From Nitratireductor sp. XY-223 (lineage in GTDB: Bacteria; Pseudomonadota; Alphaproteobacteria; Rhizobiales; Rhizobiaceae), in assembly GCF_004959855.1 (NCBI RefSeq), contig NZ_SPNT01000010.1, positions 34,434 through 98,433 of the forward strand: a DNA stretch of 64,000 nucleotides. The letters are read 5' to 3'. Positions 3,600 to 19,971 of this stretch are shown here, in pieces. A program made the position numbers and the translations under genes. The notes under the pieces are model-generated. The model was given only the letters and a program-made list of their open reading frames with translations. It was not told the DNA's origin and ran no database searches. How positions within the stretch are numbered: the stretch's first letter is position 1; each line of letters begins with the position of its first letter.

Positions 3600-3623
3600 C
3601 CCGTTAGCGGCAGGAGCTTGCAC

Positions 3624-5039
3624 ATGACCAACCAGCGTGAACTGATCGACCTCAGCGCCTGCCGCATGGTGGAACTCCTCGACGCCGGCACCATTTCCGC
3701 GGCCGATGCGCTGGACGCTCTCGAAAGCCGCATTGCCGAGGTCGACCCGCTGGTCAACGCGCTGCCGACACTGTGTTTCGAGCGCGCCCGCGACGCGGCG
3801 CGGCGGCTGCAGGACCTGCCCGTCGATGAACGCGGTTTGCTGCGCGGCCTTCCGGTGCCGATCAAGGACCTCACCCAGGTCGCCGGTGTGCGCACCACAT
3901 CCGGCTCCCTCCTGTTCGAGGATCACGTATCGGAAACGACCGGGCTGCCCGCCCGTGTCCTCGAAAGGAACGGCGCGGTCGTCTACGCGAAATCCAATAC
4001 GCCGGAATTCGGCACCGGCGGGCACACGCGCAACAAGGTCTTCGGCATCACCCGCAATCCGCGCGACCGGTCGCGCTCCGCCGGCGGGTCTTCCGGCGGC
4101 GCCGCCGCCGCGCTGGCGACCGGCATGGCCTGGATCGCCCACGGCTCCGATATGGCCGGTTCGCTGCGAACGCCGGCCAGCTTTTGCGGTGTTGCCAGCC
4201 TGCGCCCTTCGCCCGGACTGATCGCGGGAGACCAACCGAGACTGCCGTTCCAGGTCCTCGGCCAGGAAGGGCCGATGGCGCGCAACGTCGAGGACGTTGC
4301 CCTGATGACCGACGCCATGAGCGGTCTTTCGTTCGAAGCCGGGCTGACGAAACCCGCGCCGGAATCCTCGTTTCTGGACGCGGCACGCACGCCGAAAAGA
4401 CCGCCGCGCATTGCCGTCAGCACGGATCTCGGCGTGACCGAGGTCGCGGCCGAGGTCCGCGATACGTTCAATGCCGCCATGGAGACACTGGCGGGTGCGG
4501 GCCTTGCACTCGAAGACGGCCATCCGGACTTTTCCGACGCTGTAGAGGCGTTCACCGTGCAGCGCGCGCTGATATACGCCGTCAAGCTCGGCGACGCGCT
4601 CGCTGATGCGCGCGGTCTTTTCAACCCCGAGGTCGTCTGGAATATCGAAAAGGGTCTCGACGCCGACGGACCGTCCATCCGCAGCGCCATTGCGGCGCAG
4701 GGCCGGCTGTTTCAGAAGGCCGTGCAGTTCATGCAGGAATACGACCTGTTGATCTGCCCGGCCACGGTCATGCAGCCCTTCCCCGCGGACGAAACCTATC
4801 CGGGATCGTCCGCCGGGACCCCCGTGAGCGACTACTTTGACTGGCTGAAAATCGTCTATGTGGTGTCCGCCGCGACGCTTCCGGTCGTCACCGTTCCCTG
4901 CGGCTTCACCGAGGGCGGGCTACCGCTCGCGATTCAGCTCATCGGCCGGCCGCACGGCGAACACGAGCTGTTCCGTTTTGCCAGGTACATCGAGGATATC
5001 CTCGGCTGGGACGCAGCACCGATAGACCCCGTCGAATAG
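3624..5039 (+). CDS. Amidase-signature enzyme
   Basis: A 471-residue amidase of the GatA/AtzF superfamily. The Ser-cisSer-Lys triad is visible: K81 in PVPIKDL, the cis-Ser within GGSSGG (156-157) and nucleophile S180 in SDMAGSLRTPA. The common TGGS before the nucleophile is MAGS here, a known variant among stand-alone amidases. ATG 3624 is chosen because AGGAG lies seven bases upstream; TTG 3618 is the only other option. There is no GatB/GatC nearby, so it is a catabolic amide hydrolase, not a tRNA amidotransferase. Substrate unknown. It is 24 bases after the DUF1513 gene and may be co-transcribed. Confidence 0.85.
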   Translation: MTNQRELIDLSACRMVELLDAGTISAADALDALESRIAEVDPLVNALPTLCFERARDAARRLQDLPVDERGLLRGLPVPIKDLTQVAGVRTTSGSLLFEDHVSETTGLPARVLERNGAVVYAKSNTPEFGTGGHTRNKVFGITRNPRDRSRSAGGSSGGAAAALATGMAWIAHGSDMAGSLRTPASFCGVASLRPSPGLIAGDQPRLPFQVLGQEGPMARNVEDVALMTDAMSGLSFEAGLTKPAPESSFLDAARTPKRPPRIAVSTDLGVTEVAAEVRDTFNAAMETLAGAGLALEDGHPDFSDAVEAFTVQRALIYAVKLGDALADARGLFNPEVVWNIEKGLDADGPSIRSAIAAQGRLFQKAVQFMQEYDLLICPATVMQPFPADETYPGSSAGTPVSDYFDWLKIVYVVSAATLPVVTVPCGFTEGGLPLAIQLIGRPHGEHELFRFARYIEDILGWDAAPIDPVE

Positions 5040-6939: not shown

Positions 6940-7194
6940 TCAGGCGTTTTTCGTAACGTAACCGATGATCAGATTGATCGTGCCGAAATTCTCGATGGTC
7001 AAATCATCGTCGGGAATCGAAATCCGGTAGGTCTGTTCCAGCCACATGATCAGTTCCATCGTGGCGGCGGAATCAAGGATATCCAGCTGCGGGATGAAGG
7101 CGTCGTCGCCGAGACCGTCCGCCTCGTTGCCGATTGCCTCCGCAAGCGCGACTATTTTGTCGCGGATTTGCTGTCGTGCCGTATCCGGGTCCAT
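6940..7194 (-). CDS. Stand-alone acyl carrier protein
   Basis: An 84-residue acidic four-helix carrier protein. The phosphopantetheine site is S42 in LDILDSAATMEL, followed by a typical helix III (DDDLTIENF). It starts at ATG 7194 with an AGGGG ribosome site and lies 14 bases after the E2 stop, last gene of an operon methyltransferase - E1 - E2 - ACP. It is not the housekeeping AcpP: the sequence differs and no fab genes are nearby. I infer that it receives the acyl group from the neighbouring E2, or carries a pathway intermediate. Confidence 0.85.
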   Translation of the reverse strand: MDPDTARQQIRDKIVALAEAIGNEADGLGDDAFIPQLDILDSAATMELIMWLEQTYRISIPDDDLTIENFGTINLIIGYVTKNA

Positions 7195-7208
7195 GGATTC
7201 CCCTAAAG

Positions 7209-8327
7209 CTATTCTTTAGCAATTGCGTTTTCGTTAGGCGACGTCAGGTGATTGAGCGCCTGGAACGCGGCGGCGCCGTCAAGCACCCGGTGATCGTAGG
7301 TCGCGCCGAGGATCGACCGGCCGTCCCGGGCCGCGCTGTGGGCGACCATCAGCGAAACAAAGGGCGGCAGGATCGGCATGTGCCGGAGCACCGGCCAGCG
7401 CGCCATGCTCGAAATGGCGACCGTGGCGCCGCTCATTTCGGCGGGCTGCAGTTTGCCGCGCATGGCCGAGCGGTGCAGCCGGGCAAACGCATCAACGAAT
7501 TCCCTGCCATCCATGCCGTCGGCCTCGTGGACTACGGGCAGGAAGAGCTTGCCGCCGATATGGACGGTGAAACCGAGATTGACGCAGTCATAGACGTATT
7601 TCCGGCCGTTATGGACCGTGGTGTTGAGGTCCGGGTTGTCCGCTGCATGACGGACGAGCTGGTAGGCCATGAGCGGCACCAGCGGACTGCTCAGAAGGCC
7701 GTGCGTGTCGCGGAAATTCTGGGCGAATGCCTGCCAGTCCGCCTCGTCATAGTCCGCCTCAAGATAGGTGGCGGCTGCGTCATTTGCGTGCCACGAAACC
7801 GAATTGAGCATCGCCGCCTCATAGGCACTGAATTCGACGCTCTTTCCGTCGGCATCCGGCGCGCCGGTCTGCGCGACCGCAGCCTTTGCCGGTTCGGCGT
7901 TTGGCGCGTTTGCGGCGATGAAGGCCTCGACATCCGAGACCTTCATGCGCGCGCCCGAGACGGGAATGTCCCCGGCGGACATACCGTGCTCTTTCATCAA
8001 TGCCAGGGCACCCGCCGTCGGCCGGTCGCTCGCGGACAGGGCCGCCGCGTCCTGCTTCGCCGGTTGCTCCTCCGGCACCGCCTCGTCGGGCGTCGCGCCG
8101 ATCCACATCAGCACCGCGCCGACATCGAGCATCTCGCCCTCGGCGCCCGACGCCTCGAGAACAAAGCCGTCCGCCTCGGCCTCGACGACCACGGTCGCCT
8201 TCTCGGACTCGATCTCCGCCACCGCCTGTCCGGATGTCACCGCCTCTCCCGGCGAAACCAGGACGGCGATAAGCCTGACCTCATCGTCATTGTTGTTGAT
8301 GCGCGGCACGAAAACGGGTTGGGGCAT
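7209..8327 (-). CDS. 2-oxo acid dehydrogenase E2 (dihydrolipoamide acyltransferase)
   Basis: A 372-residue E2 with three parts. The lipoyl domain (1-78) has lipoyl lysine K43 in ESEKATVVVEAEADG. A peripheral-subunit-binding domain follows (about 95-140, with KVSDVEAFIA). The catalytic acyltransferase domain (~165-372) ends with active-site H346 in DHRVLDG. The core is shorter than in PDH or BCKDH E2s. It normally moves an acyl group from lipoate to CoA. Here it lies between a fused E1 and a free ACP with no E3 in the locus, so transfer to the ACP is a reasonable inference. It is seven bases after the E1 stop. Confidence 0.85.
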   Translation of the reverse strand: MPQPVFVPRINNNDDEVRLIAVLVSPGEAVTSGQAVAEIESEKATVVVEAEADGFVLEASGAEGEMLDVGAVLMWIGATPDEAVPEEQPAKQDAAALSASDRPTAGALALMKEHGMSAGDIPVSGARMKVSDVEAFIAANAPNAEPAKAAVAQTGAPDADGKSVEFSAYEAAMLNSVSWHANDAAATYLEADYDEADWQAFAQNFRDTHGLLSSPLVPLMAYQLVRHAADNPDLNTTVHNGRKYVYDCVNLGFTVHIGGKLFLPVVHEADGMDGREFVDAFARLHRSAMRGKLQPAEMSGATVAISSMARWPVLRHMPILPPFVSLMVAHSAARDGRSILGATYDHRVLDGAAAFQALNHLTSPNENAIAKE

Positions 8328-8334
8328 GTCTGGC

Positions 8335-10329
8335 TCAGAACAACTCGAGGATTTCGGCGATCAGCCGGTCGCGGCCCGGCAGAACCTGCTCTTCCAGCGA
8401 ACGGGCCGACGGGATCGGTACGGAAGGTGCGCCGACCCGCCGCAATAGCCCGACATAGCCGCTTTCGGCAAGGGTCGCGGCGATCTCGGCGCCGACCCCG
8501 AACTCGGTCGGCGATTCCTCGGCGATGATGATGCGTGATCGGCCGGCCAGCGCATCCGATAGTGTTTGGCGCGGCAACGGCGCGATCAGCGACGGAAGCA
8601 CGATCTCGACCGCGATCTCCTCCTCACGCTCCAGTTCCTCGGCCACCTCTTCGACGAGCGGCGCCATGCCGCCATAGGCGACGATCGTGACGTCCGGCTC
8701 GGCCCTGTCGTTGTGCAACGTCGGAAAGAGCTGCGCCGCTGGGTCGGCCGCGTTGGCTGGCAGGACCGTGTATCCGCCCGGCTCGTTCGGCCGGCTGTAG
8801 AGCAGCTTGTGTTCGAAAAAGACCGTCGGGTGCCTCCAGTCGTGCACCGCATTTTCCAGAAGGCGACCCATATCGTGGCGGTGGCTGCCATAGACCACGG
8901 TCAGGCCGGGGACCGATGCGCAAAGGCTCTCCGGCGTCTGGCTGTGCGTGGCGCCGTATCCGCGCCCGCCGCCGCAGGCGGCGCGGATCACCAGCGGTAT
9001 CGCGACCTCCTCGAAGAGCGGCGGGAACTTGACCGCGTGGTTGTAGATCTGGTCCATGCCGAGGCTGAGGAAATCGGCGAACATGATCTCCACGACCGGC
9101 AGCCGGCCCGCCATGGCAAGGCCGATCCCGGATCCGACGACGCCGGCCTCGCTGATCGGCGTCGACAGGACACGGTCCGGATATTCGCTTGTCATGCGTT
9201 CCGTGACCTTGAACGCTCCGCCATAGGGATCGTGCAGGTCCTCCCCGAGAACGATTGCTTCGGGACACGCCTCGAGGATCGCGTGAAGCGCGGCATTGAG
9301 CGCCTGGCGCACCTTGCCGCCATAGCGTTCGTCTCCGGCGGGCACCGGCGCATTGTGTCCGAACGGATGGCGCGGCACGCTGTCGAAACGTGCCGGCGGC
9401 GACTGCATCGCACGCTCGGTCGCCGCCTTCAGGAACGCGGCATTGCGTTCCTCGATCGCCCGGCGGTCGGATGCCGGCAAACACTCGCCGAGCCGCATCA
9501 GTGGATCGCGGGCACGGATCGCATCCATCTCGTCGTCGGCGCGCAGATCGTCTCCCTTGCTGTGCGGGCCGAGCCGCATGGTGTCGATGACCAGGAAACC
9601 CGGCGAGCCGCTTTTCCGGACAGCGCCCACCACCTCTTCGGCCCGTTCGAAAAAGTCCGGCGCATCGTCGCTGAGCCGCCATGTCGGCATGCCGAAAGCC
9701 TCGCCCCGGGCGGTCAGCGATCCGGCCGTGGTGCCGGCCGTCGGTGTGGTCTGGGCGATACCGTTGTTTTCAACCACAAACAGGATCGGAACGTCCCACA
9801 CGGCCGCGAGGTTGAGCGATTCGTAGACAAGCCCCTGCCCCAGGGTTCCGTCGCCGATGATCGCCACGACGATGCCGCCCTTGCCATCCAGCTTGCGGGC
9901 CAGCGCATGGCCGACTGCAATCGCCGTCATGCCGCCCTGGACGCCACTGCTGTGGAACCCCCGGTACGCAAGATGCTGGCTGCCGCCCCGGCCGCCGCAT
10001 ACGCCTGCCTCGCGTCCCATGACTTCCGCAAGGAGCCCCTCGAAATCGCCGCTATAGGTCAGGAAATGACCGTGGTTGCGATGGTTGGAGAACACCGCGT
10101 CATTGTCGTGGTCCAGCGCCCTAACGATGCCCATCTGGCAAAGTTCCTGCCCGAGGCAGGTGTGGGTGGTGCCGGAAAGCTGGCCCTTGCTGAAGAGATC
10201 GAGCAGTGTTTCCTCGGCCCCGCGGATCAGGTGGCCGAACCCGTAGAGAATCGCGGGATCGAGCGGAAGCGCCGGTTTCGTCCCCCCGTCAAGGGCGAGC
10301 CCGGCGACGGGCTTCGGTTCAGACGCCAT
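8335..10329 (-). CDS. Fused E1 alpha-beta, thiamine-diphosphate 2-oxo acid dehydrogenase
   Basis: A 664-residue single-chain E1. Residues ~25-325 are the alpha part, with the ThDP motif from GDG (159-161) to NN (188-189). Residues ~335-664 are the beta part, with ALNAALHAIL, VLGEDLHDPYGGAF and TPISEAGVVG. The usual PDH/BCKDH E1s of alphaproteobacteria are split alpha2beta2 proteins, so the fusion is notable. It decarboxylates a 2-oxo acid and reductively acylates the E2 lipoate. The 5' end overlaps the methyltransferase stop by 11 bases, so they are co-translated. The substrate could be pyruvate, a branched 2-oxo acid or a ketol donor; sequence alone does not decide. Confidence 0.85.
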   Translation of the reverse strand: MASEPKPVAGLALDGGTKPALPLDPAILYGFGHLIRGAEETLLDLFSKGQLSGTTHTCLGQELCQMGIVRALDHDNDAVFSNHRNHGHFLTYSGDFEGLLAEVMGREAGVCGGRGGSQHLAYRGFHSSGVQGGMTAIAVGHALARKLDGKGGIVVAIIGDGTLGQGLVYESLNLAAVWDVPILFVVENNGIAQTTPTAGTTAGSLTARGEAFGMPTWRLSDDAPDFFERAEEVVGAVRKSGSPGFLVIDTMRLGPHSKGDDLRADDEMDAIRARDPLMRLGECLPASDRRAIEERNAAFLKAATERAMQSPPARFDSVPRHPFGHNAPVPAGDERYGGKVRQALNAALHAILEACPEAIVLGEDLHDPYGGAFKVTERMTSEYPDRVLSTPISEAGVVGSGIGLAMAGRLPVVEIMFADFLSLGMDQIYNHAVKFPPLFEEVAIPLVIRAACGGGRGYGATHSQTPESLCASVPGLTVVYGSHRHDMGRLLENAVHDWRHPTVFFEHKLLYSRPNEPGGYTVLPANAADPAAQLFPTLHNDRAEPDVTIVAYGGMAPLVEEVAEELEREEEIAVEIVLPSLIAPLPRQTLSDALAGRSRIIIAEESPTEFGVGAEIAATLAESGYVGLLRRVGAPSVPIPSARSLEEQVLPGRDRLIAEILELF

Positions 10330-11257
10330 GTCCGACCACCATGGCGGTGACTTCGGGCGGGTTTTCGTCGTCGGCCCTGCTCGGATGCCGGACCGTCAGG
10401 TGCGCATGCACGTCTAGCCCGCCCTCTTCGACCAGCCGGAGCAGTTCGTCCTCGCTTCGGAACAGGAAGATATGGTCCGGCTGTGGCGCGTTGATCGCGC
10501 CGGTGAGGAACGCCAGCCCGCCCGGCTGCAGGCTCTCCTTGATGCGCCCAACCAGCGCCTTCGGATCCGGCACGTGTTCAAGCAGTTCCCCGCACACGAT
10601 GCGGCTTGCCTGCGGCAGCGACGGCACGGCAAGCACGTCCTCCAGCCGCGTTTCCACCCGCTCGCCCGCGCCGCTGGCGCCGAGCACGGCCTCGCTGAAC
10701 TGCAGGCTCTGCGGGCTGAGATCGATCAGCAGCGATGGGCTGTCCGCCCACCTGCCGAGCGCCTCGACGCTGAGCAGGCCGTGGCCCGGCCCCCATTCCA
10801 TGACGAGCCCCTGCGGATCGTGCGGCGGCGACAAAAACGCTTCCCGGTAGAATTTCAGCAGCCGGTAGTGATGCGGCCACAGGAAATAGGTGCAGTAGAG
10901 CCCGACGAGGTAATAACCCTCCATGACCTCGGGATTGCTGTAGAAATCGTCTTTAAGTGCCTGAAGTTCCTCAACACTTGCGGAGTACTGACCCGTCTGC
11001 TTGAAGGCCACCTCCTCGCGCAGGATGGTGCTTCCCAGGCGCTGGAAGCCGCGCACCGCCCAGGTCGGAAAGTCCTTGTCCGGGAACGCCCTTTGCAAGA
11101 GGCCAAGGCTGTTTTCGAAGTCCGCCAGATAGGCATCGCCGTAGTCGGTGTGGAGGCCCTCCACAGCCGAGGCGGAGGAGCCGAAGAGCGTCTTGTTCAG
11201 GCCATCCTGGAGGGCGGACACCAGGGGAAACGAACCGGTCGTCAGGTCATGCTTCAT
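10319..11257 (-). CDS. SAM-dependent methyltransferase
   Basis: A 312-residue class I methyltransferase. Motif I is VMEWGPGHG (~155-163), motif II LIDLSPQSL, and the post-motif block CGELLEHVPDP followed by LQPGGLAFLTG. An N-terminal helical extension of about 150 residues without catalytic motifs precedes the fold, suggesting a substrate-recognition region. It is the first gene of the minus-strand operon feeding E1, E2 and ACP, so it is probably part of the same pathway. A perfect 12-base palindrome abuts its start codon. Acceptor (O, N or C) unknown. Confidence 0.75.
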   Translation of the reverse strand: MKHDLTTGSFPLVSALQDGLNKTLFGSSASAVEGLHTDYGDAYLADFENSLGLLQRAFPDKDFPTWAVRGFQRLGSTILREEVAFKQTGQYSASVEELQALKDDFYSNPEVMEGYYLVGLYCTYFLWPHHYRLLKFYREAFLSPPHDPQGLVMEWGPGHGLLSVEALGRWADSPSLLIDLSPQSLQFSEAVLGASGAGERVETRLEDVLAVPSLPQASRIVCGELLEHVPDPKALVGRIKESLQPGGLAFLTGAINAPQPDHIFLFRSEDELLRLVEEGGLDVHAHLTVRHPSRADDENPPEVTAMVVGHGV

Positions 11258-11269
11258 ATTGCGCGCAAT
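11258..11269. promoter_or_regulatory. Perfect palindrome at the methyltransferase start
   Basis: ATTGCGCGCAAT, a perfect 12-base palindrome directly next to the ATG of the minus-strand methyltransferase and in the 109-base gap shared with the divergent GNAT gene. It could be an operator able to block the operon; no regulator gene is in the cluster. Confidence 0.3.
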
Positions 11270-11366
11270 CGATCCGTTCGCTGACTGGGATTGGTTGGAC
11301 GGGATATCATTCCCCTTGTAAAACGCAAAATAGGCGAATTGGATTGAAATCGAAAGGCATAATCGG

Positions 11367-12425
11367 ATGGTCGAAATTCGAACCTATGACGGCGACGGAA
11401 GCGACTTTGCCGAATTGTGTCTGCGCATCCGCGGGCAGGAGGGCGAAGCGGAAAAATGGTCGCCGCTGTGGGACGCCGACTATCTGCGCGGCCAGATCGA
11501 GGCCCCTGCCGCCGATCGCGAGTTGATGGTCGCCGCCTATGACGGAGGGCGCCTGATCGGATCGTTCTTCGCGGTACCCTATAGGTTCAATCTGCGCGGT
11601 GAATCCCTTCGGGGAACCTATTCGACCTGCCTGATGATCGACCCCGCCTTTCGCGGCCTGACACCCTACGTGATCGAGAAACTCCGACGCCGTCACCGAG
11701 ACAACGGCTACGCCCTTTCGCTCGGCTTCGTCATGGGCGGGCCGGGTTCCGGCCCCCATCAGTGCTGGACCAGCTACGCCAGGGCCTATCCGAAGAACTG
11801 CCGCTTCGTTGCCGACGCCGGATACTGGATCAGGGCCTTCGATCCTTCCGTGCTCGACGCGGAAAGCCGCGCCGGGCAGGCCCGCGCCGACGAACAACTC
11901 GCCGGCCGGCTGTCAGGGGGCGAAGTTGACCCGCCGCCGGACACCGAACTCAGGGCCTGCCGTGAAGACGATATCGATGCGTGCCTGGAACTGCTCAGGG
12001 CTCAGGCCGCCAGGGCGGACTGCTCGATGGACTGGGACCGCCAAAGCCTCGGCAGGCATCTGATCGGTTCCGCCAACACGGATGCGCTGGTCGCCGATCG
12101 CGACGGGTCGGCCATCGGCCTTGTCGCCATGCACCGGCTGCCCGTCTGGAACGAAAGGCCCGTCCACGGCGTTGTCATCGACATGCTTGCCGCCGATGCC
12201 CGCGACGATCAGACCAGGCGGCTCCTCCTGAACGGCGCCTGCGCGAAAGCACGCGAGGCGGGTGCGCAGATCGCAACCGCCCTTCGCTCATCCATGTTCC
12301 GCGCACGCGTCATGATCCCGGCAGGTTTCCTGCCGGCCCCCGATCCGGGCCGGCTTGTGGTGCTGTTCGCGGACGAGACAATCGAGGCCTCGGCCGCCGA
12401 CGATTTCGAGCTGATGTTGCGCTGA
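11367..12425 (+). CDS. GNAT-family N-acyltransferase, two-domain
   Basis: A 352-residue protein with two GNAT-like halves: residues ~1-165 (LIGSFFAVPYRF, then TYSTCLMIDPAFRG, the acyl-donor loop region) and ~185-350 (ELRACREDDIDACLELL, then VVIDMLAADA). It is transcribed opposite to the methyltransferase/E1/E2/ACP operon and converges on the aminotransferase with six bases between the stops, so it sits inside the cluster. A plausible role is acylation of an amine made by the neighbouring aminotransferase; some GNATs use acyl-ACP as donor. Start ATG 11367 follows an A-rich leader with no strong ribosome site. Confidence 0.7.
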   Translation: MVEIRTYDGDGSDFAELCLRIRGQEGEAEKWSPLWDADYLRGQIEAPAADRELMVAAYDGGRLIGSFFAVPYRFNLRGESLRGTYSTCLMIDPAFRGLTPYVIEKLRRRHRDNGYALSLGFVMGGPGSGPHQCWTSYARAYPKNCRFVADAGYWIRAFDPSVLDAESRAGQARADEQLAGRLSGGEVDPPPDTELRACREDDIDACLELLRAQAARADCSMDWDRQSLGRHLIGSANTDALVADRDGSAIGLVAMHRLPVWNERPVHGVVIDMLAADARDDQTRRLLLNGACAKAREAGAQIATALRSSMFRARVMIPAGFLPAPDPGRLVVLFADETIEASAADDFELMLR

Positions 12426-12431
12426 GCGGCG

Positions 12432-13793
12432 TCAAATCCAGTTTGGAACTCTTGAGAGGATGCGCTTGAGGCCCGCGAACGCCTCGTCGAAATGCGCGTC
12501 CTCGAGGATGAACGGCGGCAGCAGCAGGATCCGGCTGCCGGCGATATGCACCCATAGTCCGCGCGCGAAACAGGCCTTCGCCACCATGTCCATGGCCTCG
12601 GCGTCAAGCGGCTCGCGCCCGGTGCCGTCGCGCACCAGGTCGATGGCAAAAAGCATCCCGATGCCGCGGGCATTGTCGACGACCTGCAGTTCCTTCAGTT
12701 CCTGGAGCCGTTCGAGGAACGCCGCGCCCCGCGCCGCCGCATCCGCGATCAGGTTGTCCCGCGTTAATATATCGATGGCCGCAAGGCCCGCCGCACAGGC
12801 CCCCGGGTGACCCGCATTGGTCGAGCCGTGGTTGAAGCGCATGTCATCCGTTTCGGCGAGGAAAGTATCCCAGATCTCGTCGGTCGCGACCGCCGCCCCG
12901 AGCGGGAAATAGCCGCCGCTGATCGCCTTGCCGAGGCACATGACATCCGGATCGAGATTGAACCGCTCGGAGGCGAACAGTGTCCCGGTGCGGCCGAAAC
13001 CGGTCGTCACCTCGTCGACCACCAGCTTGATGTCGTGGCGCTTGCAGGTCTCGCTGATGATGTCGAAATAGGCTTGTCCGGGCACGATGGCACCGCCCAT
13101 GCCCTGCACCGGCTCCATGATGAACATGGCGACCGTCTCGGGGCCTTCGGCGAGAATGGCCTTTTCAAGCTGCTCGGCGCAGGCGACCTCGAAGGCCTCC
13201 CGTTCGGCCTCGGTCTGGCTGTCACGGTTGAAGGGCTGCGCGATCTTGATGAATCCCTCCGGCATCGGGCCGAAGCCCTGCTGGTCGTCAGCGAACCCGG
13301 ATGCCGCCAGCGCCCCGTAGGAAACGCCGTGATAGGCGTTTTCAAGCGAGATGACCTTGTATTTGCCCGATCCCTTGCGATGAAAATACTGCCGTACCAT
13401 CTTGATGGCCGTTTCCACCGATTCCGAGCCGTTGGATGTCAGGAATACGCGATTGAGGCGGCCCGGCGCGATCTCGGCAACCTTGCGCGCAAGGTCGATG
13501 GCCGGCCGGTGCGCCGTCCGGAACAGCGCCGCGAAACTCAGCTCGTTGAGCTGCGTGTTGATGGCCTCGATAATGTCCTTCCGCCCGAGGCCCAGCGGCG
13601 CGTTCCAAAGGCACGAGGTCAGGTTGAGGTAGCGCTTGCCGTTCTGGTCGAAGAGATACGGTCCCTCGCCGCTTTCGACGACGATGTTCTGCGCACCGAG
13701 GATCTTCTGCATCTGGCTGAACGGATGCCACAGGTGGTAGTCCGCTCCGGCGTCAGGTTCCTGCCCGGCGATCTGCTGTTCGGATTGGCTCAT
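12432..13793 (-). CDS. Class III aminotransferase (PLP-dependent)
   Basis: A 453-residue omega-type aminotransferase. It shows the N-terminal substrate-entry motif LWHPFSQM (19-26), the PLP phosphate region SNGSESVETAIK, D260 in VVDEVTTGFGRTG and the PLP lysine K289 in CLGKAISGGYFPLG. The start is ATG 13793, overlapping the upstream SDR stop by four bases (ATGA). The open frame continues to 14258, but that part is the SDR gene read in another frame. Members transaminate omega-amino acids, diamines or amino-alcohol precursors; here an amino group is probably installed on the cluster's product. Confidence 0.87.
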   Translation of the reverse strand: MSQSEQQIAGQEPDAGADYHLWHPFSQMQKILGAQNIVVESGEGPYLFDQNGKRYLNLTSCLWNAPLGLGRKDIIEAINTQLNELSFAALFRTAHRPAIDLARKVAEIAPGRLNRVFLTSNGSESVETAIKMVRQYFHRKGSGKYKVISLENAYHGVSYGALAASGFADDQQGFGPMPEGFIKIAQPFNRDSQTEAEREAFEVACAEQLEKAILAEGPETVAMFIMEPVQGMGGAIVPGQAYFDIISETCKRHDIKLVVDEVTTGFGRTGTLFASERFNLDPDVMCLGKAISGGYFPLGAAVATDEIWDTFLAETDDMRFNHGSTNAGHPGACAAGLAAIDILTRDNLIADAAARGAAFLERLQELKELQVVDNARGIGMLFAIDLVRDGTGREPLDAEAMDMVAKACFARGLWVHIAGSRILLLPPFILEDAHFDEAFAGLKRILSRVPNWI

Positions 13794-14575
13794 GACTGCT
13801 GTTTCTCCGATGAAACCATGGGAAGCGGAATGGTCTGGGTCCAGCCCAGCGGCAATGTGCTGCCGGTGATCCAACCGGCATCGCTGGATGCCAGAAACGC
13901 AACGGCATTGGCGATATCGTGACGCGACCCGGTGCCGAGCGGATGGCAGGCATTGACCTGCTCCCAGGCCTCCGGCGTGAAGTCTTTCGCGAAATCGTGC
14001 AGCATGGGCGTGTGAGCCAGCGCCGGCGCAATGCACACGGCGCGGATTTTCTTCGGCGCCACTTCCAGCGCCAGCGAGTTCGTCAGCGCAATCACCGCGG
14101 CCTTGCTGGCACCGTACGCCGCGTTGCCGGCACAGGCATTCTCGGCCAGCACCGATGCGACGTTGATGATCACGCCGCCCGGCGACGTCATATGCGGCAA
14201 CGCTTCGCGGGTGACCCGAACCGTACCCTTGACGTTGACGTCGAACGTGAACTCCCACTGCTCGTCGGTCAGGTCCTCGAACAGGCCGAAACAGCTGACC
14301 CCGGCACAGTTGACGACCGCGTCGATGCGGCCGAATTCGGAGGCGGTCTCGGCGACCATCTGTCTGACGAAACCCAGGTCCGTTATGTCGCCCTCGTACC
14401 AGCGCACCGGCGCGCCGCGCCGCTCGAGCCGTCCCAGCAGACGCTTTGGCGCAACCCGGTCGGTAAGCACCAGCGTTGCGCCTTCCTCGGCGAACTTCTC
14501 GGCAATGGCGCCGCCGAATCCGCGGTCGTTGGCACCGGTCACAAGGACAATGGAATTCTCGAAACGTTGCGACAT
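13790..14575 (-). CDS. Short-chain dehydrogenase/reductase
   Basis: A 261-residue classical SDR. The cofactor motif is TGANDRGFGG (13-22), the structural motif NCAG (89-92), and the catalytic triad S141, Y154 and K158 (YGASK). An acidic residue after beta2 (TDR) favours NAD(H). It is the first gene of a two-gene minus-strand unit with the aminotransferase. An SDR-aminotransferase pair commonly converts an alcohol to an amine through the ketone or aldehyde, which fits a tailoring role in this cluster. Confidence 0.85.
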   Translation of the reverse strand: MSQRFENSIVLVTGANDRGFGGAIAEKFAEEGATLVLTDRVAPKRLLGRLERRGAPVRWYEGDITDLGFVRQMVAETASEFGRIDAVVNCAGVSCFGLFEDLTDEQWEFTFDVNVKGTVRVTREALPHMTSPGGVIINVASVLAENACAGNAAYGASKAAVIALTNSLALEVAPKKIRAVCIAPALAHTPMLHDFAKDFTPEAWEQVNACHPLGTGSRHDIANAVAFLASSDAGWITGSTLPLGWTQTIPLPMVSSEKQQS

Positions 14576-14758: not shown

Positions 14759-16102
14759 TCACGACTCCCGGAAAGCGCGCCTGATCTGGTCGGACAGGGG
14801 TTTCAAGGCGTAATTCAGCACCGAACGCCGGCGCGTCTGAATGAACACCTCGACGGGCATTCCGGCAATGAGATCCAGCCCCTCCAGGGTCGCGAGTTCT
14901 TCCTCAGCCACGTCAACATACACGGTGTAGTAAGGCGCGCCGCCGCCTGGTTCGTGAAGAACGTCCGCGGACACCCGGGTCACCGTGCCGACAAGCTCCG
15001 GTGTCGTGCGCAGGTTGAAGGCCGAAAACCGGACCTGCGCCGATTGCCCCGCGAATACCTCGTCGATGGAGCCGGGTTCTATGCGGGTCTCGATCTCGAA
15101 CCGTTTGTCCTGCGGAACGATCTTCATCAACGTTTCGGCGGCGCCGACGACGCCGCCTATGGTGAAGACATTCAGATCATGGACGATGCCCGACGCCGGC
15201 GCCGTGATCTCGACGCGCCGCATCCTTTCCTGCGTGGATTTCAGAAGCTGGGACACCTCGTCATATTCGCCCGCGGCCTGCCGCAGCGTGGCGAGCACCT
15301 CTTCCCGGAAGTCGTGGTCGATCTGCAGGATCTGCAGTTCCGTCTCGCTGATTGCGTTCTCCGTACGCGCGATGGCCGCTTCAAGCTCTCCGATCCGGCC
15401 GGTCAGCGTTTCGCGTTGCCGCTCCAGGTTCAGGACCCGCGATGCGGTCGCCAGTCCCTTTTCCCGCAACTGGCGGACCCCGGTCAGTTCCTGGTCGAGC
15501 GAGGCGATCTGCCTTCCGTTCGACCGGATGACAGTCAACGTTCCCTTCACCTGGTTCTCGAACTGCGCGATTTTCTCGCGAAGGCGCGACACCTGGCCAT
15601 TGCGGGACTGGCGCCGCGCCTCGAACAACCGCTCTTGGCCGTGTCGCACGGCAGGATCGGATATGATCCGGTTGATATCCAGCAGGTCATCCCGCCACCG
15701 GATGGCGTCAAGGCCGTCACGCTCCGCCTCCAGCCGCGCCAGCCGGGCGACCGCTTCTCGCAGCCGCGCCGCGTGGACCTTGAATTCCGCCCGCAACAGC
15801 GTGTCGTCGAGCCTGATCAGGGGTTCGCCCTGCTCAACCCGCTCCCCATCGGCAACACGGATCTCGGCGATCAACCCGCCATCGGCATGCTGGACATCCT
15901 TCGGCCGGCCGGCCACCGAGACCTTGCCCTGCGACACCACCGCGCCGGACAAGCGGGCAAAACTTGCCCAGCCGCCGCCGACGACGAACAGAAGGACCAT
16001 CAAGGCGAGCCCGAGACGGATTGTCCTGCGCGCCGATGTCCGCACGCTTGGTCCATCGGGCGGAGCGGCCGGTTGTGGCTGTCGATCGATTGATAGCCTC
16101 AT
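14759..16102 (-). CDS. HlyD/PrtE-type membrane fusion protein of type I secretion
   Basis: A 447-residue adaptor with one N-terminal membrane helix (about 29-48, LGLALMVLLFVVGGGWASF). A barrel/lipoyl half (GLIAEIRVADGERVEQGEPL), a long coiled coil (~110-300, rich in R/E/Q/L heptads) and a C-terminal beta-barrel follow. This is the HlyD/PrtE/LapC pattern. The start is ATG 16102, overlapping the ABC stop by four bases. With the ABC exporter it forms the inner-membrane part of a type I secretion system for the upstream RTX peroxidase. The outer-membrane TolC partner is not in the window. Confidence 0.87.
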   Translation of the reverse strand: MRLSIDRQPQPAAPPDGPSVRTSARRTIRLGLALMVLLFVVGGGWASFARLSGAVVSQGKVSVAGRPKDVQHADGGLIAEIRVADGERVEQGEPLIRLDDTLLRAEFKVHAARLREAVARLARLEAERDGLDAIRWRDDLLDINRIISDPAVRHGQERLFEARRQSRNGQVSRLREKIAQFENQVKGTLTVIRSNGRQIASLDQELTGVRQLREKGLATASRVLNLERQRETLTGRIGELEAAIARTENAISETELQILQIDHDFREEVLATLRQAAGEYDEVSQLLKSTQERMRRVEITAPASGIVHDLNVFTIGGVVGAAETLMKIVPQDKRFEIETRIEPGSIDEVFAGQSAQVRFSAFNLRTTPELVGTVTRVSADVLHEPGGGAPYYTVYVDVAEEELATLEGLDLIAGMPVEVFIQTRRRSVLNYALKPLSDQIRRAFRES

Positions 16103-17847
16103 CTGGAAGTCCTGTGCGATGCCAGCGCGATATTGCGGCCCGGAACGGCGCGGGTCAGCTTGCGCAGTACCTCGACCTTTTCGCCGAACTGGACCTGCTG
16201 ACCGTTTTTCAGGAACAGGATCCTGTTGACCGCCGCGATGGCGCTTGGCCGGTGCGCCATGACGACGACGCAGGACCCGCGTTGCCTGAGCACCTTTATC
16301 GCGTTGATCAACGCCGCCTCCCCGTCGGCGTCGAGGCTCGCATTCGGCTCGTCGAGCACCACCAGCCTGGGACAGCGCAATACGGCACGCGCCAGGGCGA
16401 CGCGCTGGGCCTGCCCACCCGACAGGATCGATTTGCCCCTGGCTAGATCGGTGCTGTAGCCGTCGGGAAGCGTCAGGATCAGTTCGTGAACGCCTGCAAG
16501 CGTTGCAGCCTCGACAATCTGCGCATCCGTCACGGTCGGGTCGAAACGGGCAATGTTCTGCCGGATCGTAGCGGCCATAAGATCGACGGACTGGGGCAGG
16601 TAACCGACATGGCGTCCAAGGGCATCCCTGTCCCACTGCTCGAAGGTGCCGCCGTCCAGCCGGACTGTGCCGCGATCCGGCGCCCACAGGCCGATCAGCA
16701 GTCTGGCGAGGCTCGACTTGCCGGAACCGCTCGCGCCGATGACGCCGAGACCGTCGCCCGGTTGCAGCTCGAACTGAATGCCGTTGAGAATCGGCCGGCG
16801 GCGCCCCTGCCGGTCGGCCTCGGCAACTTTGACAACACCGTTCACCGTCAAACAGCCCTTGGGCGCCGGCAGGGCAAACGGAGTGAAGCCGGACGGCTGG
16901 CCCTCGAGCACCTGCAGAAGGCGCTTGTACGCCTGGCGCGACACGATCAGGTTTTTCCAGTTGGCGACCGCCGCGTCGATCGGCGCAAGTGCCCGGCCGG
17001 CGAGGATCGAGGCAGCGATCATCGATCCGGCGGAAATTTCCTGGAAGATTGCGAGGCAGGCACCGAGCGCCAGGATGCCGGACTGGATGAACAACCGCAT
17101 CGCCTTGGTGAACGACTGAGCAACTTCCGAGCGGCCGCCCGCTGTTTGGGCTTCAGCCAGTCCATCATGGCGTATCAACTGCCAGTGCCTGCACACATCG
17201 GCAACCATGCCCATAGCCACGATCGCTTCGGCATCCCGCTTCGCCGCCTCGGAGAAGTTCGTGTCGCGAATATCCTCAGCCGCCGAGCGCGCAATGGGAC
17301 CGCGTGTCATCCACTCATTGACCAGGGTCGCGGCAACGACGGCCAATGCCCCGACGGTGGCCAGGAGACCCAGCCAGACATGCAGGAGATAGACGATGCC
17401 GAGATAGATCGGCACCCAGGGCAGGTCGAACAGGGCCGGCAGGCCGTTCGAGCACAGGAACCGCCTGATCGCCGAGAGATCGCCGACCGGGCGCACCGGT
17501 TCCGCGCCTGTTCGGGTTCCGGACCCGATGAACGCCGCCTGTGCCGGTGTCATCAACTCTATGTCGAGGCGATATCCGGCGCGCGAAAGCACGCGGGCGC
17601 GGACGAAATCGAACATGCCCAGAAACGCATAGAGGACCGCGACCATCGCAAACAGGGCGACCAGTGTGGGAATGGAGCGGCTCACCAGGACACGATCGTA
17701 GACCTGCAGCATGAAGAGCGGTCCGGTGAGCATCAATACGTTAATGGCGAAGGAGAAGGCGCCGACATACAGGAACGAGTCCCGCAGCGATCCGATCGCG
17801 CGGGACAGTGGATTCGTTGTAGTCGCCGGATTTTGAAGAACTGCCAA
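16099..17847 (-). CDS. Type I secretion permease/ATPase (PrtD family)
   Basis: A 582-residue half-ABC exporter. It has an N-terminal transmembrane domain (six helices, about 25-310) and an ATPase with Walker A GASGSGKSS, Q-loop YLPQSVDL, signature LSGGQAQRVALARAV and Walker B LVVLDEPNASLD. It lacks the N-terminal C39-like domain, consistent with the PrtD/AprD branch that exports RTX proteins without leader cleavage. It lies 87 bases downstream of the RTX peroxidase on the same strand, with a hairpin in between. Confidence 0.9.
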   Translation of the reverse strand: MAVLQNPATTTNPLSRAIGSLRDSFLYVGAFSFAINVLMLTGPLFMLQVYDRVLVSRSIPTLVALFAMVAVLYAFLGMFDFVRARVLSRAGYRLDIELMTPAQAAFIGSGTRTGAEPVRPVGDLSAIRRFLCSNGLPALFDLPWVPIYLGIVYLLHVWLGLLATVGALAVVAATLVNEWMTRGPIARSAAEDIRDTNFSEAAKRDAEAIVAMGMVADVCRHWQLIRHDGLAEAQTAGGRSEVAQSFTKAMRLFIQSGILALGACLAIFQEISAGSMIAASILAGRALAPIDAAVANWKNLIVSRQAYKRLLQVLEGQPSGFTPFALPAPKGCLTVNGVVKVAEADRQGRRRPILNGIQFELQPGDGLGVIGASGSGKSSLARLLIGLWAPDRGTVRLDGGTFEQWDRDALGRHVGYLPQSVDLMAATIRQNIARFDPTVTDAQIVEAATLAGVHELILTLPDGYSTDLARGKSILSGGQAQRVALARAVLRCPRLVVLDEPNASLDADGEAALINAIKVLRQRGSCVVVMAHRPSAIAAVNRILFLKNGQQVQFGEKVEVLRKLTRAVPGRNIALASHRTSR

Positions 17848-17884
17848 TGCTCACCCGTGATTGTCAAATTTGCGGAATTCTATG

Positions 17885-17919
17885 ATCGGGCCCGCACGTT
17901 GTTCCTGCGCGGACCCGAT
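17885..17919 (-). terminator. Stem-loop between RTX gene and secretion genes (attenuator-like)
   Basis: An imperfect inverted repeat: 17885-17896 (ATCGGGCCCGCA) pairs with 17906-17919, with one mismatch and one bulge, around a 9-base loop. No T-run follows, so it is more likely a partial terminator or processing site. It would let the secreted substrate be made in excess over the exporter, as in other RTX operons. Confidence 0.4.
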
Positions 17920-17934
17920 GGATGCCCTGATCAA

Positions 17935-19971
17935 TCAGCCGATCAGCACATCGTCCTGTCGCAGGTTTGCAAGGTCGACATCCTCGAGCACAAGGGAGCC
18001 CTGATCGCCCGCGTCGATAACCACGTTTCGGCCGTCCTGGATGGCGGCATCGAACAGGGCCTCCGTCGTCTCGAACAGGTCGCTGTCGAAAACCAGCGTG
18101 TCAGATTTCCTGCCCGTATTGAAATCGGTGATCGTATCGTCGCCGAAAATGCCTTCGAAGATGAAGGTGTCGTAGCCGGCGCCGCCGGACATGAGGTCAT
18201 TGCCCTCGCCGCCATTGAGTGTGTCGTCGCCCCTTCCCCCCTGCAGGTTGTCGTCTCCGGAACCGCCGGCCAGATTGTCGGCACCTTCGCCGCCCTCCAA
18301 CTGGTCCTTGCCCTCGAGACCCTCGAGGACGTCATCGCCGGCCATGCCGAGCAGCAAGTCGCTGGCATCCGATCCGCTCATCTGCTCGTCATCGTCGGTA
18401 CCGCCGGTCCGGTCGTAGGAAATCAGGGCATTGTCCTGGATGAATTCGATGTCTGTATTCGCCTCGATCACGTCGGCCAGCGTCGTGTCCCACAATGCAT
18501 CGAGTTCCCTTTGCGGCAGTTCCGAGCCTTCGCTCCAGAACGGATCACCGTCGCGCAGCCTGAGGAACTGATCCGTGATCACCGTTGCGAACAACTCACC
18601 GACCATCCCGCTGCCATGCGGATCCTCCGCAAGGCCGCCGATCCAGGCATCGACGGCATCCACGTCTCCGTAGAGCTCCTCGAGCCGGGCGGCGAGATCG
18701 GCGTCCGACGTGATGTCGCTGAAGTCCTGCGCCCGCTCGAGACCGAGCGCTTCGCGCAGATCGTTATAGGCGGCGACACCCAGGTCGCGTCCGCGCTGGA
18801 TGTTGAGGGAAGCAAGGTCGAGACCGCCGGAGCCCGGCGCGCCGAACAGGAAGGAACGGACATCCTCGATCACCTGTACGTCGAGTTCCTGGGCAGTGCT
18901 GTCGGCAAGACCGCGAAGAATGGGATCGATGCCGCCGAATTCGGCGATCAGGTACGGTGAGAAATACGCGTCGCGCAGTTCGAGATTGCCCGCCTCAATG
19001 ACCGAACCGTCTTCATTCAGCCGCTGTATCTGGGATGACAGCAGGCTATGGCCGAACCGGTATGCCGCGGTCGAGAACTCGACGGTGATGCCGGGATTGA
19101 CGTTCGGGTCATAGCCCTCATATTCGGTGATCGCGTCCTCGCCGAGCAGCACGGGAAGGAACTCGTTGAAGGTGATCGCCTGGATTTCCGCCTCGACGCG
19201 CTGGCGCGCCGCGTTAAAGAGGTCGTCGTCGCTGAGACCGGGATCCGCCGCCGCGAGTTCGTCGACAATGCGGTTGTGCTCGCGGGCAAACAGCGTGTGA
19301 AGCGAAGTCAGGGCAACATTTTCAGCAGCCCTTATGTCGCCCGCCAGGACCGAATTCTCACTCGGCTGGACAAGCAGGTCCTGTGCGTCGAGGAGCAGTG
19401 TGCCGCCTTCGCCCCTGAGCGAGGCCGCAGTTTCCGCGTCGGAACCGTAGACCATCGAGGCATCCAGAAAGGCCGTGATCGCGTTTTCGTACTGGCGCGG
19501 CGTCGTCTCGCCCGTGCCTTCGACCGGATCGGCCCGGAAGAAATCAATCGTCGCCTCACCCGTGCCGTCGGGGTCGAACAGGGGATCGCCGGTCGGAACG
19601 GAGATGGGAAAGGCCTCCGAGTCGCCGGCCTCGGTCAGGTCCAGATCATGGTCGATGAACTGGCCCCACGCCCAGAACAGATCGCTGACGCCGAAGCTGT
19701 TTGGTTCATCGCCGGTCTGCTGGGCCACCGCATTGCTGATCTCGCGCGCGCTCGGCAACCCCTCCACCGGCGTGCCGATGCCGTCCTCGAAACGCACATC
19801 GGCGAGGCGCAGCAGGGTCTGCCCGGCCGCTCCCCAGTCTGTGTTTTCCTCGACAGTGCCGGTGCCGTCGATGGGACGAACGGCCGTGACCAGGATGTCG
19901 GGTTCGTTCGGATCATCGTCTCTTCGTCTCCGGTTCTGGGAATCCCGTTCGCCTTGACCCCTGTGTCGCAT
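17935..19971 (-). CDS. Secreted haem peroxidase with RTX C-terminus
   Basis: A 678-residue peroxidase of the animal (peroxidasin/cyclooxygenase) superfamily fused to RTX repeats. The haem site is complete: distal H108 in WGQFIDHDLDLT, R230 and E231 in LFAREHNR, proximal H308 in YRFGHSLL. Residues ~533-604 are eight calcium-binding nonapeptides, followed by a C-terminal type I secretion region (~605-678). There is no Sec or Tat signal; export is by the PrtD/PrtE-type genes downstream. It would use peroxide to oxidise halides or organics outside the cell. The start has ribosome site GAGGAG. A PmrA-type box lies about 90 bases upstream. Confidence 0.88.
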   Translation of the reverse strand: MRHRGQGERDSQNRRRRDDDPNEPDILVTAVRPIDGTGTVEENTDWGAAGQTLLRLADVRFEDGIGTPVEGLPSAREISNAVAQQTGDEPNSFGVSDLFWAWGQFIDHDLDLTEAGDSEAFPISVPTGDPLFDPDGTGEATIDFFRADPVEGTGETTPRQYENAITAFLDASMVYGSDAETAASLRGEGGTLLLDAQDLLVQPSENSVLAGDIRAAENVALTSLHTLFAREHNRIVDELAAADPGLSDDDLFNAARQRVEAEIQAITFNEFLPVLLGEDAITEYEGYDPNVNPGITVEFSTAAYRFGHSLLSSQIQRLNEDGSVIEAGNLELRDAYFSPYLIAEFGGIDPILRGLADSTAQELDVQVIEDVRSFLFGAPGSGGLDLASLNIQRGRDLGVAAYNDLREALGLERAQDFSDITSDADLAARLEELYGDVDAVDAWIGGLAEDPHGSGMVGELFATVITDQFLRLRDGDPFWSEGSELPQRELDALWDTTLADVIEANTDIEFIQDNALISYDRTGGTDDDEQMSGSDASDLLLGMAGDDVLEGLEGKDQLEGGEGADNLAGGSGDDNLQGGRGDDTLNGGEGNDLMSGGAGYDTFIFEGIFGDDTITDFNTGRKSDTLVFDSDLFETTEALFDAAIQDGRNVVIDAGDQGSLVLEDVDLANLRQDDVLIG
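18160..18348 (-). repeat. RTX nonapeptide repeats in the peroxidase
   Basis: Seven consecutive nine-residue units of form GGxGxDxLx (e.g. GGSGDDNLQ, GGRGDDTLN), plus one degenerate unit just before them (18349-18375). They form a calcium-dependent parallel beta-roll. Confidence 0.85.

Follow-up and report, generated by a model that had tools for sequence, protein, structure and literature searches.

Loading of two-carbon (C2) units from sugar phosphates onto an acyl carrier protein (ACP) is described for antibiotic-type assembly lines (PMC6335953, PMC7570522, PMC5384830; these and the other papers are cited from excerpts). The Qnc, Nap, Scl and Din loaders (QncN/QncL/QncM, NapB/NapC/NapD, SclQ1-4 and DinS/T/U) are reported there to bring a glycolyl or hydroxyethyl unit from a ketose phosphate to the ACP. 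SclQ1-4 are reported to be homologous to QncM/N/L, which direct the attachment of a C2 glycolicacyl unit, a likely source of which is xylulose 5-phosphate (PMC6335953). NapB/NapD homologues are portrayed as two-component transketolases that use xylulose 5-phosphate to provide an ACP with a hydroxyethyl unit (PMC7570522). These loaders combine E1 parts, a lipoyl E2 and a free ACP in one unit and serve nonribosomal peptide synthetase (NRPS) clusters. Here, we describe a locus with the same combination in Nitratireductor sp. XY-223, at positions 6940 to 14575 of a stretch of 64,000 nucleotides (contig NZ_SPNT01000010.1, positions 34,434 to 98,433 of the forward strand; hereafter the window). Unlike in the described loaders, the E1 of the window is fused, its gene is followed by those for E2 and ACP in that order, and NRPS, polyketide synthase (PKS) and KASIII were not found; an N-myristoyltransferase-type acyltransferase and a methyltransferase stand in their place. 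The best reading of the locus is a dedicated biosynthetic route, and we give a probability of about 0.45 to all seven genes forming one pathway of C2 loading, methylation on the carrier and amide formation. The features are as follows.

6940..7194, minus strand: free-standing ACP, 84 amino acids (Pfam PP-binding, E 4.9e-6; ILDSAAT with the predicted phosphopantetheine serine)
7209..8327, minus strand: lipoyl E2, 372 amino acids (Pfam Biotin_lipoyl, 3.9e-11; 2-oxoacid_dh, 5.7e-19)
8335..10329, minus strand: fused E1 alpha/beta, a thiamine-diphosphate enzyme of the RenH clade (E1_dh, Transket_pyr and Transketolase_C)
10319..11257, minus strand: class I S-adenosylmethionine (SAM) methyltransferase with a helical N-terminal domain
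11258..11366: divergent intergenic region of 109 bp between methyltransferase and acyltransferase, likely a common promoter region
11367..12425, plus strand: N-myristoyltransferase-type double GNAT acyltransferase, 352 amino acids, with a conserved C-terminal arginine
12432..13793, minus strand: class III aminotransferase, 453 amino acids from the ATG at 13793 (Pfam Aminotran_3, E about 5e-95)
13790..14575, minus strand: short-chain dehydrogenase/reductase (SDR), 261 amino acids

The first-pass annotation of the window had listed these seven genes and their families, with overlaps of 11 bases between the E1 and methyltransferase genes and of 4 bases between the aminotransferase and SDR genes. 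Open reading frame (ORF) calls and Pfam/NCBIfam matches agree with it on both overlaps and on every gene, all intact and correctly placed. The start of the aminotransferase was chosen from the full-length match in Hoeflea poritis. The acyltransferase and aminotransferase genes converge with a gap of 6 bp, and the methyltransferase and acyltransferase genes diverge. The annotation's remark that fab, PKS and NRPS partners are absent holds as well, as no such domain and no E3 was found among the called genes Pfam-scanned at 37-44769 of the window (the amidase at 3618-5039 was scanned with NCBIfam). An NRPS/PKS antibiotic cluster using a glycolyl unit was rejected on the same scan. Scanning the window with Rfam and for tRNAs gave no matches.

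Relatives of the E1/E2/ACP set

The E1 of the window groups with enzymes of the RenH type. In a maximum-likelihood tree, 15 E1s of its family and five RenH-type E1s (four from clusters, one of unread context) are split from 19 ordinary E1s with 100/100 support. Removing the motif columns leaves the split in place (SH-aLRT 100 in a quick search), and an earlier tree with RenH and the S. cattleyicolor E1 only gave the same result, but with both on long branches. The window E1 carries the motifs THTC, HSKGDD, YGGAFK and RGYG. All 127 rows comprising the family, RenH and S. cattleyicolor have HSKGDD and RGYG, and neither motif occurs in any of 27 ordinary E1 rows. Some of these 27 are overlapping loci and one (L007) is a 91-residue fragment reaching neither motif, which leaves 25 distinct rows with letters at each motif. 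Other motifs are less clean, with YGGAFK found in one, GDGT in one and THSQ in four of the 27 ordinary rows. The two motifs are shared by three further plasmid E1s (P. polymyxa, NBC_01136 and Nonomuraea), whose rows joined after the motifs had been chosen. Of 7997 candidates in a protein search, 4951 scored as E1 homologues with E <=1e-60, and HSKGDD is present in all of the best 119 listed. The family rows are skewed to close matches, and the independent support comes from the five RenH-type E1s. HSKGDD lies in the E1-alpha loop and RGYG directly before the E1-beta histidine of THSQ; the added basic residues of these motifs might bind sugar phosphate.

RenH was the top match in a plasmid tblastn search with the E1, followed by an unannotated S. 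cattleyicolor locus. RenH and RenI of Candidatus Endohaliclona renieramycinifaciens are a fused E1 followed by an E2, as in the window; RenH is 39.8% identical to the window E1 over 95% and shares its clade and its HSKGDD and RGYG motifs, whereas RenI is only 20.5% identical to the window E2. The renieramycin cluster is presumably of NRPS type, and the part of its record that was read has names for RenB-RenL only. The S. cattleyicolor megaplasmid carries an unannotated KASIII-ACP-E1a-E1b-E2 set (L037:8608-12967) between two PKS-sized ORFs, modular PKS by eye, and this set is a likely glycolyl-unit loader for a polyketide. A search with the S. cattleyicolor E1a recovered ACP-E1a-E1b-E2 in Streptomyces NBC_01136, beside annotated PKS and condensation-domain genes. 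The same search gave a P. polymyxa locus that has the order E2-methyltransferase-ACP-E1a-E1b and contains PKS and thioester-reductase genes, and, in Nonomuraea gerenzanensis, an E1a-E1b-E2 set of RenH type (L047:10001-12935; 69, 60 and 42% to S. cattleyicolor). Separately, one E1 family member of 860 amino acids (P0049) has the PLP-decarboxylase domains PF02784 and PF00278 in the same record, at most a hint of a PEP-CTERM/exopolysaccharide cluster.

The E2 and the ACP retain the residues expected of a transfer pair. In an alignment with two ordinary E2s, RenI and three more E2s that belong to clusters or are related to them, the window E2 has its lipoyl lysine in ESEKAT, the catalytic histidine in DHRVLDG and an N-terminal PRINNNDD motif. 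The phosphopantetheine serine of the ACP aligns in 10 of 10 carrier proteins compared. The lysine, histidine and serine required for transfer from E2 to ACP are thus all present, with the lipoyl E2 and the free ACP in one unit. Assignment to the Qnc/Nap/Ren-type ACP-loading sets is well supported at the sequence level.

Judged on the domain content of E1 and E2 alone, the locus could encode a 2-oxoacid dehydrogenase of ordinary catabolism beside unrelated genes, and the first-pass annotation had named a branched-chain or acetoin dehydrogenase with a nearby E3 as what would overturn its reading. We consider such an enzyme highly improbable. Pyruvate dehydrogenase (PDH)- and branched-chain keto acid dehydrogenase (BCKDH)-type E1s and E2s are encoded separately on contig C11 of the same genome, together with two E3-like genes (E3 by eye). 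Furthermore, the ACP gene adjoins the E2 gene in the window, in H. poritis and in all four acidobacterial loci uncut by a contig end. A BCKDH or PDH identity was rejected on clade, motifs and the missing E3 in the scanned genes.

The methyltransferase and the acyltransferase

Close homologues of the methyltransferase at 10319-11257 (METHYLTRANSFERASE) are linked to the E1 by contigs of matching size. Such linkage was seen for E1, methyltransferase and acyltransferase, based on the best 119 E1 matches of 4951, 58 of the 59 listed methyltransferase matches (the remaining one lacked a length) and all 19 acyltransferase matches, with query rows excluded. Members of this set lie on contigs of 831188, 126959 and 39225 bp. 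As the E1 sample covers the best 120 of 4951, E1 misses are uninformative, and chance was estimated by a simple simulation with jittered lengths. H. poritis itself accounts for one of the five matches linking the GNAT protein to E1.

Six distant methyltransferase loci with extended homology were read, on two plasmids, one IMG/VR contig and three genomes from the order to which the window belongs (3 of 296, its own genome not counted); the other distant matches are metagenomic proteins outside these six. All six loci contain FkbH and an ACP. FkbH matched NCBIfam at 1.1e-69, 4.5e-87 and 1.6e-70 in the two plasmids and the IMG/VR contig, and tblastn at E 2.4e-161 or better in the three loci of the window's order; the ACPs score under the curated cut-offs of ACP models. 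Among viral contigs, 44 methyltransferase loci were found, one with extended homology (L050) and the rest weaker (E 1e-9 or worse), and the other 43 showed no FkbH match at E 1e-6. FkbH reportedly makes glyceryl-ACP, and in methoxymalonyl pathways an O-methyltransferase is proposed to act on the derived hydroxymalonyl unit while still on its carrier (PMC7489565). An alpha-hydroxyacyl thioester on ACP would be common to E1/E2 and FkbH, and we therefore place the methylation on the ACP-bound unit, a step for which we see the chances as evenly balanced. In contrast to the FkbH sets, the window has E1/E2 as its loader; no HAD or FkbH protein was found among the seven genes with Pfam and NCBIfam, and an FkbH-type methoxyacyl-ACP pathway was rejected for this locus. 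The window methyltransferase and FkbG/Mad15 have the SAM fold in common.

Candidate kin within the loader clusters proved weak. The P. polymyxa methyltransferase is only 19% identical (E 0.024) and was rejected as close kin, and a comparison with RenJ gave no match. The IMG/VR locus (L050:5658-11533) encodes an SDR, KASIII, methyltransferase, MaoC, FkbH, ACP, a weakly PseH-like GNAT, an FdtA-type sugar gene and a polysaccharide gene. It may be an O-antigen cluster that N-acylates an amino sugar from an FkbH-loaded ACP, as a parallel case. In two of the three FkbH loci of the window's order, a protein of 481-485 amino acids with a MaoC-like start (by eye) adjoins the methyltransferase (L115:9972-11429 and L116:7736-9181).

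The association with FkbH also bears on the donor. E1 and E2 might load the ACP from an alpha-keto acid such as pyruvate, 2-oxobutyrate or a branched-chain acid, in which case the product would be a simple short acyl amide and neither a glycolyl nor a methoxyacetyl one. By fold, the E1 belongs with the 2-oxoacid dehydrogenases, and branched-chain acyl-ACP priming in N-acyl amide clusters is cited in PMC5384830. The same paper proposes that pepteridine is made by a PDH-like E1 and an E2-carrier-condensation fusion (Plu2796), which would charge the carrier from alpha-keto acids and form an amide on a free amine. Pepteridine differs from the window in this donor and in using an NRPS condensation domain instead of an N-myristoyltransferase-type enzyme. 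We consider alpha-keto acid loading unlikely, since the window E1 falls outside the clade of 19 ordinary E1s, shares its motifs with RenH-type E1s, and the methyltransferase kin pair with FkbH, a maker of alpha-hydroxyacyl-ACP.

The first-pass annotation had called the acyltransferase a GNAT N-acyltransferase on the plus strand. Strand and fold were right, and the assignment can be refined to a tandem-GNAT protein of N-myristoyltransferase type, which the predicted model and the profile matches strongly support. The model shows a tandem GNAT fold matching N-myristoyltransferase over the full length, with 13-19% identity to eukaryotic N-myristoyltransferases in the alignments listed. PF01233 matched 9 of 20 family members (best E 1.9e-4). 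The last residue is an arginine, at a single alignment column, in all 19 complete homologues; in N-myristoyltransferases, the C-terminal carboxylate is the catalytic base. Unlike the eukaryotic enzymes, the window enzyme is bacterial and paired with an ACP loader. GNAT-fold enzymes taking acyl-ACP are known from the FeeM-type N-acyl amino acid synthases. Fold and C-terminus match enzymes that acylate an N-terminal glycine, and the cluster could accordingly be a bacterial protein-acylation system with protein N termini, lysines or peptides as acceptors. We regard this as improbable. The neighbouring aminotransferase and SDR fit a small-molecule amine, no obvious target protein is encoded among the seven genes, the related loader clusters of NBC_01136 and P. 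polymyxa sit with PKS/NRPS genes, and the FkbH-linked L050 with sugar genes.

Conservation, distribution and the extent of the unit

In Hoeflea poritis (same genus; NZ_JAPJZH010000008.1), all seven genes keep order and orientation at 76-94% amino acid identity, with 92-94% for the aminotransferase and SDR. Ratios of nonsynonymous to synonymous substitution (dN/dS), derived from computed dN and dS values, range from about 0.06 (aminotransferase, SDR) to about 0.17 (E1, E2, GNAT). Hence, the arrangement is not a product of chance. The intergenic region at 11258..11366 is identical in 99 of 110 aligned columns, compared to 77-87% nucleotide identity of the genes. Scattered genes in close relatives would have spoken against the first-pass annotation; the sole close relative having these genes has them clustered and collinear. 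The search across Alphaproteobacteria that it had suggested shows a rare and patchy E1. At 1e-120, the E1 was found in 1 of 385 genomes of the class (the window's own), 2 of 297 of the family (the window's own and H. poritis) and 2 of 8 of the genus, the other six being without a match; at 1e-150, it was found in 1 of 299 genomes of the phylum. From an acidobacterial centre, the counts were 1 of 199 genomes of the centre's phylum and 6 of 200 of its order, Bryobacterales. All counts include the own genome of the window or centre. Viral contigs held no relative of the E1 or the acyltransferase.

Another genome of the genus (G001) has the flanking amidase, metallophosphatase and pot-type genes within 17.5 kb and no match to any of the seven genes. 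The M15, YkuD and OmpA neighbours are also absent from this stretch, so the block gained or lost may exceed seven genes. Downstream of the SDR, 14759-19971 of the window encodes HlyD and ABC transporter genes and an animal-haem-peroxidase-type protein with RTX repeats, likely a type I-secreted peroxidase. These genes were rejected as cluster members, as they are not found between the SDR and the pot-type genes in H. poritis.

Five of the six Bryobacterales loci were read. Four have E1-E2-ACP followed by a protein of 309 amino acids (L041:7775-8707, L044:8223-9152, L040:4292-5218 and L042:11284-12213; 51-62% identity between loci), and a contig end truncates the fifth. The two of these four proteins that were scanned had no Pfam/NCBIfam match; by eye, the protein looks like a divergent NodB-type deacetylase. 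A protein of about 370 amino acids, GNAT-like by eye, adjoins the gene for the 309-residue protein or, in L040, lies on the other side of the E1. Homology of this protein to the window acyltransferase is unsupported (BLASTP E 1.3; hhalign probability 9%). No ORF of PKS/NRPS size was called in these stretches, where most ORFs were judged by size.

The aminotransferase and SDR are the weakest part of the interpretation. What places them in the pathway is the coupling of their genes and their conservation in a single further genome. By sequence, the nearest relatives of the aminotransferase are class III omega-transaminases, with putrescine and polyamine:pyruvate transaminases among the nearest solved structures, and the SDR is FabG/BudC-like. 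The unit might comprise only the ACP, E2, E1, methyltransferase and acyltransferase, with the two other genes serving another role such as amine catabolism, and this narrower unit is a serious possibility, if short of probable. The polyamine-type likeness of the aminotransferase fits it, as do the pot-type ABC (polyamine-type transporter) genes directly after the SDR in H. poritis, the acidobacterial E1-E2-ACP sets without aminotransferase or SDR, and the contig-size linkage, with these two genes outside that search. The 4-base overlap, the 6-bp convergent gap to the acyltransferase and the high identity in H. poritis speak for seven genes instead.

A proposed pathway for an ACP-bound C2 unit

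In a pathway of seven genes, all substrates of which we infer, a ketose phosphate would supply the C2 unit to the E1, as reported or proposed for Qnc/Nap-type relatives and suggested by the clade and motifs of the E1. The lipoyl arm of E2 would accept the unit and deliver it to the ACP, at the phosphopantetheine thiol, and not to CoA; an E3 from another locus would then re-oxidise the dihydrolipoyl arm. The methyltransferase might then O-methylate the alpha-hydroxyl to yield methoxyacetyl-S-ACP. The SDR and aminotransferase, the least certain members of the set, could convert an alcohol to an amine. The acyltransferase would form the amide with its C-terminal carboxylate as base, as its fold and fixed C-terminus suggest. 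Among these steps, C2 loading of the ACP is probable and N-acyl transfer is favoured slightly less firmly, while the supply of the amine by aminotransferase and SDR is tentative. The complete assembly-line-free route, in which a glycolyl unit from sugar phosphate becomes methoxyacetyl-S-ACP and an N-myristoyltransferase homologue N-acylates a small-molecule amine or protein, is as a whole less likely than not. The dedicated route proposed in the first-pass annotation is nonetheless strengthened by the E1/E2/ACP set grouping with antibiotic-type loaders, the FkbH/ACP association of the methyltransferase kin and the N-myristoyltransferase-like GNAT protein.

Several points weigh against such a pathway. 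Deletion of sclQ1-4 left residual scleric acid, and the role of these genes rests partly on glycolic acid feeding (PMC6335953). For pepteridine, an E1/E2 of this kind is proposed to work on alpha-keto acids (PMC5384830). The assignment of RenH and of the plasmid loci is based on homology and gene context, and the assayed Nap or Qnc proteins are in neither the motif table nor the E1 tree. The Nonomuraea set showed no ACP, KASIII, PKS or NRPS match within 20.9 kb for the queries tried. The window acyltransferase alone has no Pfam N-myristoyltransferase match (E up to 1). The acidobacterial E1-E2-ACP sets lack methyltransferase, aminotransferase and SDR and have a different protein of about 370 amino acids, indicating that the full set is not fixed. 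Finally, linkage of the aminotransferase and SDR is known from two genomes only.

Among the literature matches listed for the terms used, no free-standing glycolyl-ACP or methoxyacetyl-ACP pathway and no bacterial N-myristoyltransferase homologue of this kind was described. In eukaryotes, N-myristoyltransferases are under study as drug targets. The absence of PKS and NRPS from the scanned Hoeflea clusters (two genomes) and, by ORF size, from the Bryobacterales loci suggests that the loader may serve a wider chemistry. If the proposed pathway is correct, an antibiotic-type C2 loader and the N-myristoyltransferase fold would be joined in one pathway, which would suggest that the N-myristoyltransferase family has a bacterial branch fed by ACP and specialised in small acyl groups. 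The seven genes would then provide a simple system for asking how this fold evolved its choice of donor and acceptor.

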